In this document: piece after piece, positions 6,044-53,057 of the stretch
How the letters are laid out: every line of letters starts with the position of its first letter
How positions within the stretch are numbered: the stretch's first letter is position 1
DNA from: Bryobacteraceae bacterium
GTDB taxonomy: Bacteria; Acidobacteriota; Terriglobia; Bryobacterales; Bryobacteraceae
Reading direction: 5' to 3'
Length of the DNA: 64,000 bases
NCBI GenBank assembly: GCA_026002875.1
Contig: BPGE01000001.1
Coordinates: 4,745,561 to 4,809,560 of the forward strand
Notes under the pieces: generated by a model
The model's input: the letters and a program-made list of their open reading frames with translations, nothing else
What the model was told of the DNA's origin: nothing
The model's database searches: none
Position numbers and translations under genes: made by a program

Positions 6044-6919
6044 ATGACCAACATCCTCACCGTCGACGTCGAGGATTACTTCCACCCCACGGAAGTCCAG
6101 CGCTCGGTCGGCCCATCCGCCTGGGATTCTCTCCCCTCGCGCGTCGAGCGCTCCACCGCCATCGTTCTCGATCTGCTCGCCGAAGCCGGCGTCCGCGCCA
6201 CCTTTTTCGTCCTCGGCTGGGTTGCCGCCCGCCGCCCCGCCCTCGTCCGCCGCATCGCCGCCGCAGGTCACGAAATCGCCTGCCACAGCTTCGCCCACCA
6301 GCTCGTCTTCGCCCTTTCCCCCCGGCAGTTCCTCGAGGACACCCGCAACGCCGCCGACGCCATCGCCCAGGCTGCCGGTTCGCCTCCCCGCGCTTACCGC
6401 GCTCCCAGCTTCTCTGTCACAGCCCGGTCTCTCTGGGCCCTCGAAATTCTCCTCGAGTGCGGCTTCTCCGTGGACTCCAGCATCTACCCCGTGCGCCACG
6501 ACCGCTACGGCATCCCCGGCCGCCCCTGCCACCCCCACCGCATCATCACCCCTTCCGGCTCCATCCTGGAAGTTCCCCCTGCCGCCGTGCCGCTCGCCCG
6601 GAACCACGTCGCACCCGCAGGCGGCGGCGCCTACCTGCGCCTCCTTCCCCTCGCCTATATGGCCTCCGCCATCCGCCTCATCAATCAGACGTATTGCTCT
6701 CCAGCCTGCATCTACGTCCACCCCTGGGAGTTCGACCCCGCCCAGCCCCGCCTCGCCTCAGGCGCTCTCTCGCGCCTCCGCACCTATCTCGGCCTTCGCT
6801 CCATGCCGCGCAAGCTCTCCCGCCTTCTCCGCATGTTCCCCTTCAGCTCCATGTCCGCCGTCTGCCCGCCGGACGGCGCCTATCCCGCCGATCACTCCCT
6901 CTTCGCTTCGCCCCGCTGA
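6044..6919 (+). CDS. Polysaccharide deacetylase of the PEP-CTERM/XrtA-associated subfamily (with DUF3473-like tail)
   Basis: This 291-residue protein starts three bases after the dehydrogenase stop. It opens with ILTVDVEDYFHPTEV, the N-terminal metal-binding region typical of the PEP-CTERM-locus deacetylase subfamily. It then shows HEIACHSFAHQ (metal histidines) and RAPSFSVT. The C-terminal part, with YVHPWEFDPAQPR, resembles DUF3473, which marks this subfamily in exosortase/exopolysaccharide loci. It probably removes N-acetyl groups from the glycan made by the neighbouring enzymes. Two PEP-CTERM proteins at 51281 and 52374 support a sorting system elsewhere in the genome; no exosortase is present here. 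Confidence 0.88.
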   Translation: MTNILTVDVEDYFHPTEVQRSVGPSAWDSLPSRVERSTAIVLDLLAEAGVRATFFVLGWVAARRPALVRRIAAAGHEIACHSFAHQLVFALSPRQFLEDTRNAADAIAQAAGSPPRAYRAPSFSVTARSLWALEILLECGFSVDSSIYPVRHDRYGIPGRPCHPHRIITPSGSILEVPPAAVPLARNHVAPAGGGAYLRLLPLAYMASAIRLINQTYCSPACIYVHPWEFDPAQPRLASGALSRLRTYLGLRSMPRKLSRLLRMFPFSSMSAVCPPDGAYPADHSLFASPR

Positions 6920-6923
6920 CGCC

Positions 6924-8312
6924 TCAGAACCGGAATGCCGCCTGGCTCGGCGACCATGTCAGGTGCGCCGACACAAACCGCTGCCACCTCTTCGGTCCGG
7001 TCGACTCGAAATACGAATACCCCCCGTTGAGCCCCACATACAGATCGCCCGCGATCCGCGTCCCGGTGCTGGCGCCCACCGACCCGCTCTGCAGAACCGC
7101 GTTCTGCAGCAGCCCGCTCCACCGGAAATAGCCCCCGAACACCGCGAAGCTGAACCGGCCCAAACCCCTGCCGGCCGAACCGAACACGGAATCCCGCTTC
7201 GATGCCAGAATCAACCCGTTCCCCGGATTCAGTCCGTGCATGTACCCCACCGAGACGCCCCACTCCCTCCAGTTCCGGCGGAGCGCGGCCATTCCCGACC
7301 AACCGTAAAAGGAACGCTGCTGCACCTCGAGCTGCGTCCCCACCCCCAGCAGCTCCGCCACCACCGGATCGATGTCGACTCTTCCCAGGAACGTCGTCTT
7401 CATGCGGTACACTCCTCCGCCCACCGCCACGCTTGTCTGGGGTGTCAGCTGATGCGTCAGCCGCAGGCCTGCAAACTGCGCCCGGTTGTTGCCGAACAGC
7501 TTCGGATACGAAAACTGGCTGTATCCGTAGCTCCCGCTGATCGCCGTGCGCTGCCCCAGCCGGTAACCTGCGCCCCCGAACACCCCCGCTGAATTCAGAT
7601 CGCGCAGGCCCGGCCCTTTCCTCCGGACGAAACCCGCCTGTGCGCCGCCCCCGAAAGTCCACCGCAGAGTCGGCCGGTAGTTCACTCCGCCGGATGTCCC
7701 GTAAAAGTTCACCCGCGTCCCGAACAGTTCATTGTCGACCAGCCCGTTCTCTCCAAGATCCGTCAGCGGTCCGCCCGGAATCCCGGCCATCGGCAGCATC
7801 GCCGCTCCCGTCACCCCCCAGCCTCCGAATACGCCCGCCGGTGCGCCGTAGCCGAACCCGCCCAGGCTCGAGCCTGCAAACTGCGTCGCGTACACTCCAA
7901 CCTTGTCCGTCGCCCGGTGGCTCACCGATACTCCTGCCACCTGGCTGGCGCCTCCGATTCCTCGGCTCCCCGACCAGCGCTGGTAGTTCGCCGTGTAAAA
8001 TGCCGCCACCGACGTCCGCTCCCACCCCTTCGCTCCGCTCACTCCGCCTGCCCCGCCATAGCCGTAGAAATCTCTCCGCAAACTTTCCACCCGCAGCTGC
8101 CCCAGCGTTTGCGTATACGTCCCGTTGGCTGAAACCCACGGGCGGAACGCCAGCCGCGAGGGCGGCGCCCCGGTATCCACGTCATCCATTCCGCCCATGC
8201 CCCGCAGCCCCCCGAGACCCCACTGCCCCCATGCCAGGCTGCTCCCCGCGAGCAGCCACAGCGCAGCGGCAGTGCATCCTCCCGCCCGAAATTGCTTCCG
8301 TTGTTCTTTCAT
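6924..8312 (-). CDS. Predicted outer-membrane beta-barrel protein
   Basis: This 462-residue protein has a clear signal peptide (cleavage probably after SSLAWG) and a glycine-rich segment (WGLGGLRGMGGM). A long series of alternating aromatic/glycine strands follows, ending in a terminal phenylalanine (AAFRF), as expected for barrel insertion. The ATG at 8312 has GAGAGGAGG upstream. It converges with the deacetylase gene at a distance of four bases. No specific family is recognised; a role as porin or transport barrel is inferred from architecture only. A TAGAAT box lies upstream near 8377 on this strand, with only a weak -35. Confidence 0.75.
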   Translation of the reverse strand: MKEQRKQFRAGGCTAAALWLLAGSSLAWGQWGLGGLRGMGGMDDVDTGAPPSRLAFRPWVSANGTYTQTLGQLRVESLRRDFYGYGGAGGVSGAKGWERTSVAAFYTANYQRWSGSRGIGGASQVAGVSVSHRATDKVGVYATQFAGSSLGGFGYGAPAGVFGGWGVTGAAMLPMAGIPGGPLTDLGENGLVDNELFGTRVNFYGTSGGVNYRPTLRWTFGGGAQAGFVRRKGPGLRDLNSAGVFGGAGYRLGQRTAISGSYGYSQFSYPKLFGNNRAQFAGLRLTHQLTPQTSVAVGGGVYRMKTTFLGRVDIDPVVAELLGVGTQLEVQQRSFYGWSGMAALRRNWREWGVSVGYMHGLNPGNGLILASKRDSVFGSAGRGLGRFSFAVFGGYFRWSGLLQNAVLQSGSVGASTGTRIAGDLYVGLNGGYSYFESTGPKRWQRFVSAHLTWSPSQAAFRF

Positions 8313-33321: not shown

Positions 33322-33349
33322 CGGAGGCCCTGCGGCTGCAGGGCCTCCG
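33322..33349. promoter_or_regulatory. Stable hairpin in the leader of the 30833-33304 gene
   Basis: A perfect 12-bp stem (CGGAGGCCCTGC with its complement) closes a four-base loop, just upstream of the TTG start and GGAGG of the minus-strand gene. It is followed on that strand by GCTTTCTGGAGG, so only a short T stretch is present. It may stabilise the mRNA 5' end or act in attenuation. Termination is less likely. Confidence 0.5.
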
Positions 33350-46302: not shown

Positions 46303-46398
46303 GGAAGCTCCACTGGGCCGGTGCCCGGCCTGGTCTTCAAAACCAGTGGGCGGCCCTCTGGCGCCGCTGGTGGGTTCGACTCCCACGAGCTTCCGCCA
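46303..46398 (+). tRNA. selC: tRNA-Sec (anticodon TCA)
   Basis: The 96-nt sequence folds as a selenocysteine tRNA. It has an eight-base acceptor stem (GGAAGCTC pairing with GAGCTTCC), an anticodon stem CTGGT/ACCAG with loop CTTCAAA (anticodon TCA at 46337-46339), a long variable arm, a T-loop GGGTTCGACTCCC and an encoded GCCA tail. The long extra arm, the eight-base acceptor stem and the UCA anticodon separate it from tRNA-Ser. It implies that UGA can be read as selenocysteine in this organism. selA, selB and selD are not in the window. Confidence 0.95.
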
Positions 46399-46512
46399 CG
46401 CCCTCCCTCCTCCGAAATTCCGTGAAATTTCCTCTATAATTCCGGGTTTCCGCCCGCTCCCGGTTTCGGTAAAATAGGCTCGATTCGGGGCGTCCCCCCG
46501 GTGAGGTTAGCC

Positions 46513-47544
46513 GTGAGCCAGATGGAAAGAATCTACAAAATTCATAAAATGCTCGACAAAAATCGGGCTGTGCCGTTTCAGAAATTACTCGAGGAACTGG
46601 AGGTCAGCCGGGCGTCGCTCAGGCGCGACCTGCAGTACATGCGGGACCGCCTCGGGGCGCCGATCGAGTACAGCCGGGAGCGCCGCGGCTACATTTACGC
46701 CCAGCCGCCCGCCGGCGAAGACGGCGATTCAGCCCGCTACCAGCTCCCCGGAGTCTGGCTCACGCCCGGGGAGATGCACGCGCTGCTTCTGATGTACGAG
46801 CTCCTCAGCCAGATGGATTCCCGCGTGCTGGAAGGAGCGCTGGCGCCGGCTGCGCGCCGCATCGAGGCTCTCATTTCGGGCGGCAGGGTGAAACCGAAGG
46901 ATATCCGCCGCCGTTTCCGCATCATCGCCGCCCGCCACCGTCCGGTCGACGAGCAGATTTTCCGCATCGTCAGCACTGCCGTGCTGCAGAGAAAGCGGCT
47001 GAATCTGACCTATTTCAGCCGCTCGCGCGGAGAAATCATGTCCCGCACGGTCAGCCCCCAGCGCCTCATCTGGTACAGCTCCAACTGGTATCTCGACGCC
47101 TGGTGCCACACAAGGGAGGATTTCCGGAGCTTCTCGCTGGACGCGATCCGCGGCGCCGCGCTGCTCGATCAGAAGGCTGACGAGCATCCGCAGGAAATTC
47201 TCGACCAACGGCTCGGCGCAGGATACGGGATCTTCGCCGGTCCGCCCCGGGAAACGGCGCTCCTCCGGTTCGGGCTTCCCGCGTCGCGATGGATCGAAAG
47301 GGAAATCTGGCACCCGGACCAGCGCCTCACCCCGCTTCCGGGCAACGAATTCCTCCTGGAGGTGCCCTACTCGGATCCCCGTGAACTCGTGCAGGACATC
47401 CTGCGGTTCGTCCCGCACGTCGTCGTGGAGTCGCCGGATTCCCTGCGCCAGCTCGTTCTCAGGCATCTCCAGGACGCCCTTGCCGCGCACAGCGGCGAAG
47501 TGCGGAAGCCCGCAGCCGGCGAAGCCCGCCTGTCGGCTGGATGA
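46513..47544 (+). CDS. WYL-domain transcriptional regulator
   Basis: This 343-residue protein has an N-terminal helix-turn-helix (LEELEVSRASLRRDLQYMRDRLG) and a central WYL domain (WYSSNWYLDAWCHTREDFRSFSLDAI). A C-terminal WCX-like extension follows (GLPASRWIEREIW...VPYSDPRELVQDILRF). The GTG at 46513 was chosen because GAGG lies upstream; GTG 46501 and ATG 46522 are alternatives. WYL domains bind nucleic acid or ligands and often control DNA-repair or defence genes. It precedes an Mre11/Rad50-like pair by 167 bp. Confidence 0.87.
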   Translation: MSQMERIYKIHKMLDKNRAVPFQKLLEELEVSRASLRRDLQYMRDRLGAPIEYSRERRGYIYAQPPAGEDGDSARYQLPGVWLTPGEMHALLLMYELLSQMDSRVLEGALAPAARRIEALISGGRVKPKDIRRRFRIIAARHRPVDEQIFRIVSTAVLQRKRLNLTYFSRSRGEIMSRTVSPQRLIWYSSNWYLDAWCHTREDFRSFSLDAIRGAALLDQKADEHPQEILDQRLGAGYGIFAGPPRETALLRFGLPASRWIEREIWHPDQRLTPLPGNEFLLEVPYSDPRELVQDILRFVPHVVVESPDSLRQLVLRHLQDALAAHSGEVRKPAAGEARLSAG

Positions 47545-47633
47545 ATTTCTTTCCGCAGGATCGCGTGGTGAGCCACCAGGCGCAACACAATCCAGTCAGG
47601 GGAGGGAAATCGGAGGAGGAGCTGGCGCCGGCC

Positions 47634-47702
47634 GGCGCTGGGGAGTAGCTCCCTGCTCTCCAGCGCCGCCGGACGCGGCAGGCGCCCCGCGGCGCTGGAG
47701 AG
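47634..47702 (+). promoter_or_regulatory. Two-state leader: mutually exclusive hairpins upstream of the Mre11-like gene
   Basis: Segment A (47634-47645, GGCGCTGGGGAG) can pair with segment B (47656-47667, CTCTCCAGCGCC) over 12 bp including one G-U. Segment B, extended to 47669, can instead pair with segment C (47689-47702) over 14 perfect bp. Segment C abuts and partly covers the ribosome-binding sequence GGAGAGGAG before the ATG at 47712. Pairing B-C would hinder translation, while A-B would free the site. This is seen directly; the regulatory meaning is inferred. Confidence 0.55.
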
Positions 47703-47711
47703 GAGAAGTCC

Positions 47712-48803
47712 ATGGCAGTCAGACTGCTCCACACAGCCGACTGGCAGATCGGAATGAAAGCGGCCCACCTCGGCCCGGCGGCGCCCCGCGCCCGCGAGGC
47801 GCGGCTCGAAACCGCCCGCCGCATCGCAGAGCTGGCCCGCGCGGAAAAAGTCGATCTCGCCATCCTTGCCGGCGACACCTTCGAGCACTCCGCAGTCCCG
47901 CTTGACGATGTCGGCCGCGTGGCCCGTACGCTTGCGGATTTCGGCTGCCCCGTCATCGTCCTGCCCGGCAACCATGATCCGCTCGGGGCTGGCAGCCTCT
48001 GGGAGCTGCCGGTCTGGGACGAATGCCCCAACGTCCGCATCGCCCGTCTGGAAACCCCCATCGAACTGGAATCCTGCGTCGTCTTCCCCTGTCCTCTCCG
48101 CAGCCGCTGGGGAACGGGCGATCCCACCGCCTGGATTCCCTCCGGCCTGTTCGGGGACCGCATCCGTATCGGCGCCGCCCATGGCGCCGTGGCCGGTTTG
48201 CCCAACCAGGAGCAGACCTATTCGATCCCCGCCGATGCCCCTGCTCTGCGCCGTCTCGACTATCTGGCTCTCGGAGACTGGCATTCGGCGCGCCAGTACC
48301 GCAGCCCGGACGGCGCCGTCCGCATGGCTTACAGCGGCACGCCGGAGCCTGCTTCGTTCGCCGAGGACGCCAGCGGCTTCGTGCTGCTCGTCGACATCGA
48401 CTCGCCCGGCGCGGCGCCGCGCATCCGCCAGCAGCGCGTCGCCCGCCTGCGGTGGATCCGGGAAGAGTTCCAGATCCTCGAGTCCGGCGCCCTCGCCGCG
48501 GTTCTCCGCAAGCTCGAGCCGCTCGCCTCGCCTGAAACGGTCGCGGAACTGCATCTCGCCGGAGCCCTGTATCCCGAGGATCGCGACACGCTCGCCGCTC
48601 TGCGGCAGCTCGCGTCCCGGTTTCTCTTCCTCCGCATCGACGACGGTCTGCGCCCGGTGCTGCGCCTCGAGGATCTCCCGGACGGCCCCCTCCGCGAGGC
48701 CGCCCGCCGTCTCGATCAGCTCGCCCTGCAGGAAGACCCGTCCGCCGAGGCGCGTCAGGCTCTCCAGACCCTGCTCGCTCTCGCGAAAGGAGCCGGCGCA
48801 TGA
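47712..48803 (+). CDS. SbcD/Mre11-like metallophosphoesterase nuclease
   Basis: This 363-residue protein has the phosphoesterase motifs in order: LLHTADWQIG, ILAGDTFEHS, LPGNHDPLG, AAHGAV and LGDWHSARQY. These are as in Mre11/SbcD and YhaO-type nucleases and imply a two-metal nuclease on DNA ends. The C-terminal 110 residues should contact the partner ATPase. Its stop overlaps the start of the Rad50-like gene by four bases, so the pair is probably a complex. It is shorter than E. coli SbcD (about 400). Confidence 0.88.
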   Translation: MAVRLLHTADWQIGMKAAHLGPAAPRAREARLETARRIAELARAEKVDLAILAGDTFEHSAVPLDDVGRVARTLADFGCPVIVLPGNHDPLGAGSLWELPVWDECPNVRIARLETPIELESCVVFPCPLRSRWGTGDPTAWIPSGLFGDRIRIGAAHGAVAGLPNQEQTYSIPADAPALRRLDYLALGDWHSARQYRSPDGAVRMAYSGTPEPASFAEDASGFVLLVDIDSPGAAPRIRQQRVARLRWIREEFQILESGALAAVLRKLEPLASPETVAELHLAGALYPEDRDTLAALRQLASRFLFLRIDDGLRPVLRLEDLPDGPLREAARRLDQLALQEDPSAEARQALQTLLALAKGAGA

Positions 48804-51208
48804 TTGTCCGCAGAATCGCCGTCGAACACTTCGGCCGGTTTCTCCAGCCTCTCGAGGTCGCGCTCGATCCCGCGCGCCCCAATCTTCTCGCCGGGCCCAA
48901 CGGCAGCGGCAAGTCCACGCTGCTCGCCGCTCTCGCCTCCGCCTTCACCGTTTCCGCCACCTCCAATGCCCAGGAGATCAAACGCTGGCAGCCGTGGCAG
49001 CGGAATCTCTTCCCGCGCGTCACCGTCGAGTTCGAGCACGCAGGCAGCCTCTGGCGGCTTCAGAAAGAGTTCGCCTTCAGCCCCCGCGGAAAGGCGCTTC
49101 TGGAGCGTTTCGAGGAAGGACGATGGCGGCCGCACGCGCAGGGAAGACATGTGGAAGAGCGCCTGCCGGAGTTTCTGGGCGCCCCGCAGGGCGGCTCCGG
49201 CTCCTGGCTCGTGGCCGGGGCGCTGTGGGCCCGGCAGAATGAACTCGCGGAACTGCGCCTCGATCAGCCTCTGCAGGAGCGCATCCGCAACTCGCTGGGC
49301 GCCCAGATCCGCTCCGGCCTGGTCGACACCGTCCTGCGCGAAGCGAAGCGGCTGTATGACGAGGATTGGCCGCCTGAGGGCAAATCGCTCCGGAAGTCTT
49401 CCCCGATCCGCACGCTGGAAGACGAACTGACACGCCTGCGCGACCGGGTCCGTGCGCTCCAGGAGAGCCTTGACGCGCTGGAGAACGACCGCATTCAGCT
49501 CGAAAAAGCCCGCGATGAGAGTGCCGCCCTTGAAGTTCGCAAGTCGGAGCTCGAAGCCCGGCTCAGGGAACTGGGCGAAAAGCTGAAACTCAAAACGGAG
49601 CTCGACGCCGGCCGCCTCGAGCTCGAGAAATCCATCCAGGCGGCCCGCTTCGAACTCGACACCGCCGCTTCGGTTCTCAAACTGCGGCAGACGATTGCCG
49701 CCGATCTGGACGCGGCGGCAAAAGCGGTCTCCGCGCTCGAGGAGCGCCTGCAGCGGGCGCGGGCGGAAGTCAAGTCCGCGGAAGACGCATGGATCCAGGC
49801 CCGGGCCGCCGCCTCCGCGCGTGCGGCGGAGGCCGAGGCGCAGATCAGGAGCCTCAACGCCCCGCCGCGGGATCTGCTCGACCGGGCCGCCCGTCTGGAC
49901 CAGCAGCTTCGCGAGCTGCAGGCCAGGCTGGATGGCGCGCTGCTCCATGTTCAGCTTCAGCTGGACGCGCCCGCCCGGATCGGCGTGCACAAGGGCAGCC
50001 CGGAAGGCGTGCTGGAAGGCCAGGCGGGAGAGACGCTGGAGATCAGCGGCTCGCCCGAAATCGAGCTGGCCCTGCCCGGCTTCGGGCGGATGCGCATCTG
50101 GGGGCCTTCCGCCTCGGTGGAAGAACTCCGCGGCCAGATCGCCCGCGTGCGCCTTGAGCGCCATCAACTGACGCAGCCCTGGGGCGCCGCGGATCTGAAT
50201 CTCCTCGAGGAAAAGCGCCGTCAGGCCGAGTCGCTGGAGAACGAGGCCGGCGCCCTCAGAAAGGCTCTTGCCGCCCACGAGAGCGGCGCGAGCCCGGAAG
50301 CCGTCTCGTTCGCCCGCGCCCGCGACTCTGTCCGCGATCTCGAGGAGCAGCTCCGGCAGGCGCACGACAGGCAGCGCGCCCTCCAGCAGCAGAAAGCCGC
50401 CCTCGATAGCGACCCCCGCGGCGAATCTGCGCTGCAGCAGGCAAAGGAGGAAGCGGCGCGGCGGCTCGCCGTGGACGAAACCCGCCTCAGGGAGTTGCTC
50501 GAACGCCTCGCGCTGCTGCCCGCCGGTCTCGACCTTGAAAAGCAGCGCGCCGAGAACGAACTCGCCCGGCTGCAGACGCAGCTGGAACAGGCGCGCGAAC
50601 TGCGCGCGCGGCTCAGCGAACGCATCGCGCAGAAACAGGGCGAAGGCGCCTATGCCCGGCTCGCCGAGGCCGAAGAACAGTTGGCGGCGAAACAGCAGGA
50701 GTACGATTCCGCCCTGCGCCAGGCCCGCGCCAACCGCCTCCTCTGGCAGACGCTCAACGACGTTCTCGAAGAAGCCGAAGGCTCGATCCTGCCCCGCCTC
50801 GAGCAACGGACCATTCAGGTCCTGTCCCGCATCAATGGGGGCTTCCTTCGCGGCGTCCGGCTGGATCGGAGCTCCTGGAAACCGGACGCTGTCACGCCCG
50901 CGGAGGCCGCCGGCGCGCTTGAGGTGGCCCCGGACCGCATCTCCGGCGGCGAGCAGGAGCAGCTTCATTTCGCGCTCCGGCTCGCCCTCGCCGATATCCT
51001 CTCCGAAAGCGAACCTCAGCTCGTCGTGCTCGACGATGTCCTGCTCGCCACCGACTCTGCCCGCCTCCGCAGGATCCTCGATCTGATCGAAGAGCGCCGC
51101 CCGCGCATGCAGTTCCTCATCCTCACCTGCCACCCGGAGCGCTTCGGCGGGCTCGAGGATGCGCGCCTCGTCCGCCTCGGCGCTCGCGACCACTCGGCCT
51201 CTGCCTGA
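48800..51208 (+). CDS. SbcC/Rad50/YhaN-like coiled-coil ATPase without a zinc hook
   Basis: This 802-residue protein has the Walker A motif GPNGSGKST, the ABC signature ISGGEQEQ and Walker B LVVLDDVLLATD, split by long coiled coils as in SMC/Rad50 proteins. There is no CxxC zinc hook; the whole protein has one cysteine (LTCHPERF). The apex at about residues 380-445 is instead a beta-rich segment (HVQLQLDAPARIGVHKG, ALPGFGRMRIWGP). It is shorter than SbcC (about 1050) and closer in size to YhaN-type proteins. It is coupled to the Mre11-like gene upstream. Confidence 0.87.
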   Translation: MIVRRIAVEHFGRFLQPLEVALDPARPNLLAGPNGSGKSTLLAALASAFTVSATSNAQEIKRWQPWQRNLFPRVTVEFEHAGSLWRLQKEFAFSPRGKALLERFEEGRWRPHAQGRHVEERLPEFLGAPQGGSGSWLVAGALWARQNELAELRLDQPLQERIRNSLGAQIRSGLVDTVLREAKRLYDEDWPPEGKSLRKSSPIRTLEDELTRLRDRVRALQESLDALENDRIQLEKARDESAALEVRKSELEARLRELGEKLKLKTELDAGRLELEKSIQAARFELDTAASVLKLRQTIAADLDAAAKAVSALEERLQRARAEVKSAEDAWIQARAAASARAAEAEAQIRSLNAPPRDLLDRAARLDQQLRELQARLDGALLHVQLQLDAPARIGVHKGSPEGVLEGQAGETLEISGSPEIELALPGFGRMRIWGPSASVEELRGQIARVRLERHQLTQPWGAADLNLLEEKRRQAESLENEAGALRKALAAHESGASPEAVSFARARDSVRDLEEQLRQAHDRQRALQQQKAALDSDPRGESALQQAKEEAARRLAVDETRLRELLERLALLPAGLDLEKQRAENELARLQTQLEQARELRARLSERIAQKQGEGAYARLAEAEEQLAAKQQEYDSALRQARANRLLWQTLNDVLEEAEGSILPRLEQRTIQVLSRINGGFLRGVRLDRSSWKPDAVTPAEAAGALEVAPDRISGGEQEQLHFALRLALADILSESEPQLVVLDDVLLATDSARLRRILDLIEERRPRMQFLILTCHPERFGGLEDARLVRLGARDHSASA

Positions 51209-51280: not shown

Positions 51281-52003
51281 TCAGTTCCGGTTCAGCCGCC
51301 GCCGCAGCAATCCCAGCCCCAGCAGCCCTGCGCCGATGAGGGCGTAGGTGCCGGGCTCGGGGACATAGTGGGCGGACAGGACGACGTCGTTCATGTCCCA
51401 GTCCCCATAAAGGCGGTCCTCGAAGCCGAAGTAGAACTGGTTCATCAACTGCGTGTTCCGGAATGCGGCCACGCCCAGAGGACTGGCGTCCGAACGGAAA
51501 AAGTCCCCTGAGCTCGAATCCGAAAGATACAGGGCGATCACATCGCTGGCCAGAATCGTCACGGTGTCGCCCACCCATTTCGTCTGATTGAAAAGCGGGT
51601 AAAGCGTAGGCGTAGCGCTCAGCGGATAATAATAGCCGACTTCAAACGTTGGAGAGCCGGCGATCCGCCCCTCCAGCCTGAATGTCCACTGTCCCGGCGC
51701 CAGCAGAAACGGAGTGATCGCGTCGTTGTCCGAATAGTACTCGAGGTTGCTGCCCCCCAGGTTCAGGCCGGTGCCCGGGGTGCCATTCTGAAGATTCCCG
51801 CATCCTGCGAATCCGCCGGCGAGGAAGAAGCCCGCGTTGCAGGACGCGCCATCAGACGACGTCCGGTCCCAGAAAGGCACGTTGTCGTTGTTGACGTTGG
51901 GCCATCCGCTCCACGTGCCCGGACCGATGATGGGTGATCCCAACACGCTGCAGGCCGCCACGGCCAGAATGGCCATGAGCGGCAGGATTCTTCTGAAAAA
52001 CAT
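51281..52003 (-). CDS. PEP-CTERM sorting-signal protein
   Basis: This 240-residue exported protein starts with a signal peptide (LPLMAILAVAACSVLG) and ends with the exosortase signal VPEPGTYALIGAGLLGLGLLRRR. That signal consists of the PEP motif, a hydrophobic span and basic residues. In other bacteria such proteins are cleaved and anchored by an exosortase such as XrtA. The mature part includes DNDAITPFLLAPGQWTFRL and is not a known enzyme. GGAGGGG precedes the ATG. Confidence 0.88.
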   Translation of the reverse strand: MFFRRILPLMAILAVAACSVLGSPIIGPGTWSGWPNVNNDNVPFWDRTSSDGASCNAGFFLAGGFAGCGNLQNGTPGTGLNLGGSNLEYYSDNDAITPFLLAPGQWTFRLEGRIAGSPTFEVGYYYPLSATPTLYPLFNQTKWVGDTVTILASDVIALYLSDSSSGDFFRSDASPLGVAAFRNTQLMNQFYFGFEDRLYGDWDMNDVVLSAHYVPEPGTYALIGAGLLGLGLLRRRLNRN

Positions 52004-52373: not shown

Positions 52374-53057
52374 TTATCCAATCCGTCTCCGGAGAAGGCC
52401 AAGAGCGGCGAGCCCCGCGCCGATCAGGGCGTATGTGCCAGGCTCCGGAATTTCGCCCGTCTGCCTGTACAACTGCCGCACATCCGAGAGCTTGGCGAAA
52501 GCAAAGCCCTGCTCGACATTGGCCACCAGAAGAATGTCCTTGTTCACCCGGATCTTCGAGTAGCCCTGCGGCAGGTTGATTAAATCCATCAGGACGCTGG
52601 GGTAATAGACAAGACCGTTGCCCACGATGTTCAACCCGTCGTAAACAACCTCGCTGACGGTGACGATTGAGTCTGGAGGGTTGCTCGCACCTCCATTGAT
52701 GCTCAGATAGACGCCGTCGATGAGATAGGGCGAAGCCGCGGTCACATCCCAGGAAACATTCAGATTCCACGTCGTGGGGCAATTCCCCGGAGTGCATGCC
52801 GCATACATGCCCCCGGTCAGCTGGAGCCCGAACAGGCCGCCCTGTGTGATCGGATTGACCTGAACGCCTGAAAGATCCGTAGGAGTGGCAGTGCCCGATC
52901 CAAAGATTGTCAGCACAGCCTCAAAATTGCTGAAGACCTTGTCGCCGGATGTGACCGTGCCATTTGTGTCGATGAGCGTTTGCAGGGATACCGGTGTCGC
53001 CCAAGCCATGCCACCGGCGATGATCAGTACGCCTGCCAGCAACCACATGCGTTTCAT
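52374..53057 (-). CDS. PEP-CTERM sorting-signal protein
   Basis: This 227-residue protein has a signal peptide (MWLLAGVLIIAGGMAWA) and the C-terminal sorting signal IPEPGTYALIGAGLAALGLLRRR, nearly the same as in the neighbour at 51281. The middle part (VNPITQGGLFGLQLTGGMY, DGVYLSINGG) is beta-rich and unassigned. GGAGGAG lies upstream of the ATG. The shared tail suggests recognition by one exosortase. Confidence 0.87.
   Translation of the reverse strand: MKRMWLLAGVLIIAGGMAWATPVSLQTLIDTNGTVTSGDKVFSNFEAVLTIFGSGTATPTDLSGVQVNPITQGGLFGLQLTGGMYAACTPGNCPTTWNLNVSWDVTAASPYLIDGVYLSINGGASNPPDSIVTVSEVVYDGLNIVGNGLVYYPSVLMDLINLPQGYSKIRVNKDILLVANVEQGFAFAKLSDVRQLYRQTGEIPEPGTYALIGAGLAALGLLRRRIG

Follow-up and report, generated by a model that had tools for sequence, protein, structure and literature searches.

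Gene content of the locus

The window, by which we mean the entire 64-kb stretch of DNA analysed, carries a WYL-domain regulator gene followed by a leader and two overlapping genes for a nuclease and an ATPase. The genes, all on the forward strand, are as follows.

46501-47544 (+): WYL-domain regulator with HTH_11, WYL and WCX domains (Pfam)
47712-48803 (+): Mre11/SbcD-like nuclease, 363 aa (PF00149; SbcD relatives in the PDB)
48800-51208 (+): Rad50/SbcC-like ATPase, 802 aa (Pfam and translation)

A whole-genome profile search returned the WYL gene as the only PF13280 match in the genome. A PDB sequence search identified PafBC (6sj9, E 1.3e-19) as the closest relative of its product, with weaker matches to BrxR, CapW and 8tp8 (E 3.9e-4), the last of which we take to be the DriD structure. 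The nuclease/ATPase pair recognised in the first-pass annotation was confirmed by PF00149 and further Pfam matches. The nuclease scored 49.0 bits against TIGR00619, below the 77.65 needed for the SbcD family, and no CxxC zinc hook was seen in the 802-aa translation of the ATPase. A selenocysteine tRNA gene lies immediately 5' of the WYL gene (46303-46394, +; RF01852, 75.5 bits), and two PEP-CTERM proteins are encoded on the reverse strand beyond the Rad50-like gene (51281-52003 and 52374-53057; Pfam).

The order of WYL gene, leader of 167-176 nt and Mre11-like gene was the same in all five genomes of the genus examined, namely that of the window (G000) and G001-G004. One further record, L024 (DYJN01000060.1), apparently corresponds to the G003:C63 contig, and its label, Arcobacter, is at odds with its relatives. 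The first-pass annotation had interpreted the leader as a translational switch or attenuator, in which a segment B pairs either with an upstream segment A or with a downstream segment C beside the Shine-Dalgarno (SD) sequence of the nuclease gene.

An operator-like palindrome and a predicted promoter precede the nuclease gene

WYL loci of the family were fetched (30 loci, from 56 genomes with a match), of which 24 encode close orthologues (L185-L208; E 3e-68 or better). Taking as a site any match to at least 10 of the 12 positions of GGCTCA-N5-TGAGCC, the palindrome was found at the end of the WYL gene or just after it in 20 of these 24, overlapping the WYL stop codon in L199, while a truncated WYL copy (L209) has an exact site just beyond its match. 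The four close orthologues without a visible site were L192, L193, L196 and L208; L208 is cut by the contig end at the WYL stop and L192 is cut 117 nt after it, and the site is absent from L196 and from L193, in which mre11 starts right at the WYL stop codon. None of five distant WYL proteins (L210-L214; 26-32% identity) had the site, the best match being 8 of 12, which speaks for a specific pairing of the close WYL group with this sequence.

Alignment of the 21 loci with a site revealed an invariant A at +13 and an invariant T at +17, with A-rich columns between them, together forming a -10-like hexamer. The expected start column, +24, was A or T in 19 of 21, and columns -14 to -9 were A/T-rich, with T or A at -10 in all 21. 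The -10 columns were found by inspection, and since the loci are related, tests treating them as independent overstate significance. A consensus scan of the leader found no sigma-70-like -35/-10 pair; the -35 position would coincide with the centre of the palindrome. Transferred to the window, the alignment gives the following features.

47543-47550 (+): AT-rich tract GAATTTCT at an UP-element-like position (21 aligned WYL loci)
47558-47574 (+): operator-like palindrome GGATCGCGTGGTGAGCC, matching GGCTCA-N5-TGAGCC at 10 of 12 positions
47586-47591 (+): -10-like hexamer CACAAT at the fixed distance from the operator
47598 (+): predicted transcription start (A), 7 nt past the hexamer
47598-47711 (+): predicted mRNA leader, 114 nt, GGA-rich (predicted start and GGA counts)

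The left half-site in the window's own genome is degenerate (GGATCG). The RNA is predicted to start near 47598, upstream of segment A, and the leader transcript would contain A, B and C. The operator-like site and putative promoter at 47558-47598, on which the first-pass annotation was silent, are a control point with far more comparative support than the RNA switch.

What follows the WYL-operator pair varies outside the genus. At five loci (L194, L195, L198, L203 and L205) a HEAT-repeat/DUF2336-like protein of about 170-178 aa, assigned by Pfam at two of the five, takes the place of Mre11. In L199 and L206, from other genera, the next gene encodes a large protein without a Pfam match, which by eye recalls AddB-type nucleases.

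Co-occurrence of the palindrome with the WYL protein and the predicted regulon

Across 150 genomes of the family, exact palindromes averaged 2.79 per genome in the 24 with a close WYL orthologue versus 0.49 in the other 126 (p 8e-8; p 1.5e-5 without the window's genus), an association to which the WYL-adjacent sites themselves contribute in part. Exact copies of GGCTCA-N5-TGAGCC numbered 9 in G000, 8 in G001, 11 in G002, 5 in G003 and 1 in G004, and a control pattern was found 0 times in each. At sites of the genus genomes away from the WYL gene, A+13/T+17 was kept in 21 of 66 orientations, about 2 being expected (p 1e-15 at p0 0.032); two near-copy DUF499 loci of G002 supply four of these 21. 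The nine exact sites in the window's genome are placed as follows.

Before a CARF-HEPN gene, gap 30
Before Cas3, gap 84
Before a DUF499/HmaC-like gene, gap 46; another gene lies on the opposite side of the site
Before an ADP-ribosylglycohydrolase gene with IMPase, gap 89
Before an M48 peptidase gene, gap 24
Before a 168-aa ORF
Before a 93-aa ORF
Position 938494, with a short ORF only
Position 4839138, intragenic (inside an ORF)

The -10 hexamer was complete at the fixed spacing in five of the nine (281086, 871389, 938494, 1039187 and 2212760). The CARF-HEPN and M48 sites are without its last T, in G001 too, and that of Cas3 is shifted by one. At 2212760 (locus L131 on G000:C1), -10-like hexamers lie on both sides of the operator, one towards the HmaC/DUF499 gene and the other towards a 244-aa ORF without a Pfam match, an arrangement that may represent a bidirectional WYL promoter.

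Several of these associations recur within the genus. CARF-HEPN homologues with a site were found in two other genomes (67% and 53% identity), DUF499-type genes with a site twice in one other genome, and homologues of the 93-aa, M48 and 168-aa products with a site in one other genome each; a Cas3-like match behind a site in one other genome extended over 106 aa at 41%. These counts are a lower bound, since only some of the exact operator sites were fetched as loci.

An identity of the operator with a LexA/SOS box was rejected. Each of the five genus genomes has two LexA genes (L145-L154; G000:C1:531309 and 1393008 in the window's genome), and GG[ACT]TC-N7-GA[GT]CC was absent from up to 260 nt upstream in 10 of 10 lexA loci. 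The boxes seen there by eye were a TTCGC-N7-TTCGCC-type direct repeat and a TGTAAA-N-AATTACA type. In the mostly openly available literature on WYL regulators, acidobacteria and LexA that was covered, no description of the operator or regulon was found.

Competing hairpins in the leader of the window's genome

47621-47679 (+): extended form of the long A:B-type hairpin (AB-state fold; comparable hairpins in five other genomes)
47634-47645 (+): segment A, 5' arm, GGCGCTGGGGAG (sequence, folding, covariation)
47646-47655 (+): conserved apical loop TAGCTCCCTG; TGGCTCCCTG in the four other genus genomes
47656-47669 (+): segment B, the arm common to both helices (folding, stem scan)
47689-47702 (+): segment C, 14-bp partner of B, above chance in one of six leaders, that of the window's genome
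47697-47705 (+): SD stretch GGAGAGGAG (sequence)

The three segments lie and pair as the first-pass annotation described, with 12 bp including one G-U in A:B and 14 bp, all perfect, in B:C. Segment C had been placed next to the SD; it is indeed near it, but actually covers the first six SD bases (GGAGAG, 47697-47702). Apart from B:C, no perfect stem in the window reaches 14 bp with a loop of 3-40 nt, and none of six shuffles produced one. Lowering the minimum length to 12 bp, with the same loop range, adds only CGGAGGCCCTGC/GCAGGGCCTCCG at 33322-33349.

The energies of the two states were computed by enforcing each helix in turn in six stretches. The values for AB and BC, in kcal/mol, were -99.4 and -100.1 (47545-47740), -77.6 and -78.3 (47581-47740), -74.9 and -75.6 (47610-47740), -75.2 and -75.9 (47598-47740), -62.6 and -61.7 (47620-47714), and -62.6 and -67.1 (47598-47714). 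BC is thus better by 0.7 in the four framings ending at 47740, AB is better by 0.9 in 47620-47714, and the gap stays below 1 kcal/mol in five of six framings, BC being ahead by 4.5 in the remaining one. With energies this nearly equal, the leader model is close to bistable, and the winner varies with the chosen ends. In two framings (z -3.40 and -3.68), all 200 shuffles folded less stably than the leader. For an RNA growing from 47581, with its 3' end extended in 5-nt steps, the minimum free energy fold was AB at about 47665-47700 and BC from 47705. The mean probability that the SD is unpaired was 0.20-0.37 in this leader versus 0.52-0.83 in four genus relatives. A 28-nt direct repeat with 79% identity contains A and C, which points to local duplication of A as a possible origin of C.

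Other identities for the leader were considered and rejected. In agreement with the first-pass annotation, no known riboswitch class was recognised: nothing in Rfam reached the gathering score, and relaxing the threshold to E 10 gave eight matches in the leader (seven microRNA models and one lncRNA), all far below cut-off. A search of the genome for a repeat family or mobile element returned only self-matches among the 40 of 163 candidates scored, and no intrinsic terminator was found. A small protein encoded in the leader is disfavoured by the frequent indels between relatives, as judged by eye from the aligned leaders. The sequence TGGCTCCCTGCNC, allowing up to one mismatch, occurs at 51 places across G000 versus 13 for a backward control, an excess that coding bias may cause.

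Conservation of the leader among relatives

Six leaders were compared, five from the genus and one from a neighbouring genus (G152). The aligned genus leaders have in common the inverted repeat close to the WYL stop codon, the sequence GGAGGAG and T[GA]GCTCCCTG, the last of which forms the loop of a hairpin whose stem sequence differs from genome to genome. In a gap-free alignment of the five, the A:B helix showed double-sided changes in 7 of 9 pairs, and 80% of cells pair. Its covariation score of 0.578 compared with a shuffle mean of 0.303 and was reached by none of 500 shuffles, and controls with the partner slid gave 0.14-0.35. A register of 9 pairs round a CUCC loop failed; a different register fits. 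Longer hairpins with a CUCCCUG loop on top were folded in all five genus genomes and in G152, with energies below those of shuffles in five of the six leaders (p <=0.02) and not clearly lower in G004 (p 0.14). The count of spanning pairs was ordinary in three of six (p 0.32-0.74).

Segment C is not kept in this way. The B:C duplex of the window's genome, at -41.7 kcal/mol, compared with a shuffle mean of -21.1, and none of 300 shuffles was as good, whereas in none of the five other leaders was the duplex energy above chance (p 0.08 in G001, 0.25 in G002, 0.67 in G003, 0.32 in G004 and 0.42 in G152). For G004, the start used in the SD and duplex computations (AGC) was misplaced by 3 nt, which makes its SD distances inaccurate; the gene begins either with a TTG lying 3 nt upstream of it or with an ATG lying 3 nt downstream, and the TTG was used for the GGA counts. 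No SD motif was present within 20 nt of the G152 ATG. Among the six leaders, C as a competitor for B is particular to the window's genome, and a conserved translational switch is therefore unsupported. Lack of conservation of A, B and C was a refuting condition set by the first-pass annotation; A:B withstands it and C does not.

A search with a model of the hairpin gave one strong match in each of the five genus genomes, at mre11, the weaker matches having E >=0.17 among the 150 scored of about 6,100-7,400 first-look candidates per genome. On 42 other loci the model gave one marginal match (E 0.93) and missed the hairpin of G152, which was recognised by eye and folding. The hairpin is missing from the short leaders of several Mre11-bearing family members. 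In the genus of G152, one locus (L191, G074) keeps the operator and a CTCCCTG hairpin after the WYL gene, and no Mre11-like gene was found in the examined part of that locus. The leader hairpin is a real, lineage-specific element kept in one genus and a neighbour.

Alternative explanations

The reading of the first-pass annotation, in which the SD is open in the A:B state and covered in the B:C state, with a signal tipping the equilibrium between them, holds in part. The near-equal energies of the alternative pairings, the uniqueness of B:C in the window, the lower SD accessibility compared with the four relatives and the inclusion of A in the predicted transcript all fit it, but B:C exceeds chance in one genome only, neither a ligand domain nor a cut-off match to any Rfam family was recognised, each genus genome has a single strong match to the leader motif, and AB should form first during transcription. 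We consider a two-state switch of this kind improbable. No more probable in our judgement is a reading in which a trans-acting factor such as CsrA binds the leader, with its conserved hairpin, GGA-rich 5' end and SD, and the CUCCCUG loop serves for recognition or stabilisation. The A:B covariation would agree with this, CsrA (PF02599) is present in 5 of 5 genus genomes, and the six leaders contain 5-10 GGA each, a level met by 0.2-12% of random 115-nt stretches; in four leaders, however, the enrichment is modest (2.8-12%), the SD and the purine-rich 5' end account for part of it, no hairpin loop with GGA is conserved, and pairing of the mRNA 5' end with the CUCCCUG loop was not above shuffles in any of the six.

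Hairpin DNA is a substrate of SbcCD enzymes, and the covariation is blind to the difference between an RNA hairpin and a DNA inverted repeat; the hairpins could act as DNA, for example as a cruciform on which the SbcCD-like nuclease works or as an additional protein-binding site. Because transcription is predicted to start upstream of the structure, and several Mre11-bearing family members lack it, this seems very improbable. A role for the WYL protein as a repressor at the same site, like BrxR or CapW, draws on precedent, several WYL regulators next to defence genes being repressors, but is in our view unlikely: the closest PDB relative is the activator PafBC, and the site is centred on the -35 position with no -35 element found, as described for DriD (PMC12340889). 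The adjacency of WYL regulators to defence genes is itself documented in PMC9122601.

Proposed model

The most likely control of the Mre11/Rad50-like operon is transcriptional, by the WYL protein encoded upstream, and we hold it to be likely that this protein governs the operon together with a defence regulon, with the leader serving as promoter and 5' UTR. The WYL protein is probably an activator built like DriD. A WYL dimer would bind the palindrome at 47558-47574, in the place of a -35 element, and help RNA polymerase to start at about 47598 from the -10 CACAAT. The protein, the only WYL protein found in the genome, would probably drive a regulon with Cas3, the CARF-HEPN nuclease, the HmaC/DUF499 gene and the ADP-ribosylglycohydrolase among its members. 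By analogy with DriD and PafBC, we infer that the signal may be ssDNA arising from damage or phage attack. The mRNA would then fold into the conserved long hairpin with its CUCCCUG loop. In the genus relatives most of the SD would stay accessible in this fold; in the window's genome alone, C could take B from A and mask part of the SD, possibly lowering or tuning translation. A bistable switch is possible there, on the strength of one sequence. The model draws on the sequences, the fixed spacing, the recurrence of the site and the covariation; binding, activation as opposed to repression, the ssDNA signal and any effect of the hairpin are inferred from these.

A broader proposal is tentative and somewhat doubtful as a whole: that a regulon for immunity and repair, independent of SOS and comprising type I CRISPR Cas3, CARF-HEPN nuclease, Hma-type ATPase and Mre11/Rad50-like nuclease genes, is coordinated by a single WYL protein acting as activator through a previously undescribed operator, and that a structured leader is superimposed on this in one genus, with a bistable RNA switch on the nuclease ribosome-binding site (RBS) in the window's species. 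WYL proteins are frequent neighbours of bacterial defence genes, and to our knowledge the DNA site and the regulon have been defined for few of them; here the operator, promoter geometry and target list can be read from sequence and are directly testable. If these predictions hold, a single sensor would induce a DNA-end nuclease jointly with CRISPR and other defence genes, tying DNA damage sensing to immunity in this bacterial group. The RNA switch, at present a single-genome feature, would matter much less.

Comparison with known systems

Like translational riboswitches and RBS-sequestering attenuators, the leader of the window's genome, alone among those compared, has mutually exclusive hairpins that include the RBS, with the competing hairpins beside the SD; it differs from them in having no known aptamer, one strong match per genome and an unconserved sequestering arm. 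The operon resembles SbcCD/Mre11-Rad50 in combining a metallophosphoesterase and an SMC-like ATPase in overlapping genes, while the nuclease falls below the SbcD cut-off and the 802-aa ATPase has no CxxC hook. As with BrxR and CapW, a WYL protein stands beside or controls defence genes. Those regulators act locally, whereas the sites here occur genome-wide and their promoter layout suggests activation.

PafBC of mycobacteria is the closest solved relative by sequence and shares the WYL domains and the DNA damage context; it is a heterodimer or fused pair, in contrast to the single protein here. The sequence similarity of the WYL protein to DriD is weak, and unlike those of DriD the predicted targets include defence genes. 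The wHTH, WYL and WCX domains (here by Pfam), a palindrome over -35 at a fixed distance from the -10 (here in 21 of 21 aligned loci and 21 of 66 other orientations) and a repair nuclease among the targets (predicted here) are common to both (PMC12340889). According to that paper, DriD is activated by ssDNA, its palindrome extends over the -35 with constant spacing to the -10, and PafB contacts a site at -24. For SiwR, PMC10693628 describes a 19-bp imperfect palindrome between -35 and -10. The promoter geometry predicted here is of the DriD/SiwR kind, with a different site sequence, GGCTCA-N5-TGAGCC in place of the ATACGAC-N7-GTCGTAT given for DriD (PMC12340889).
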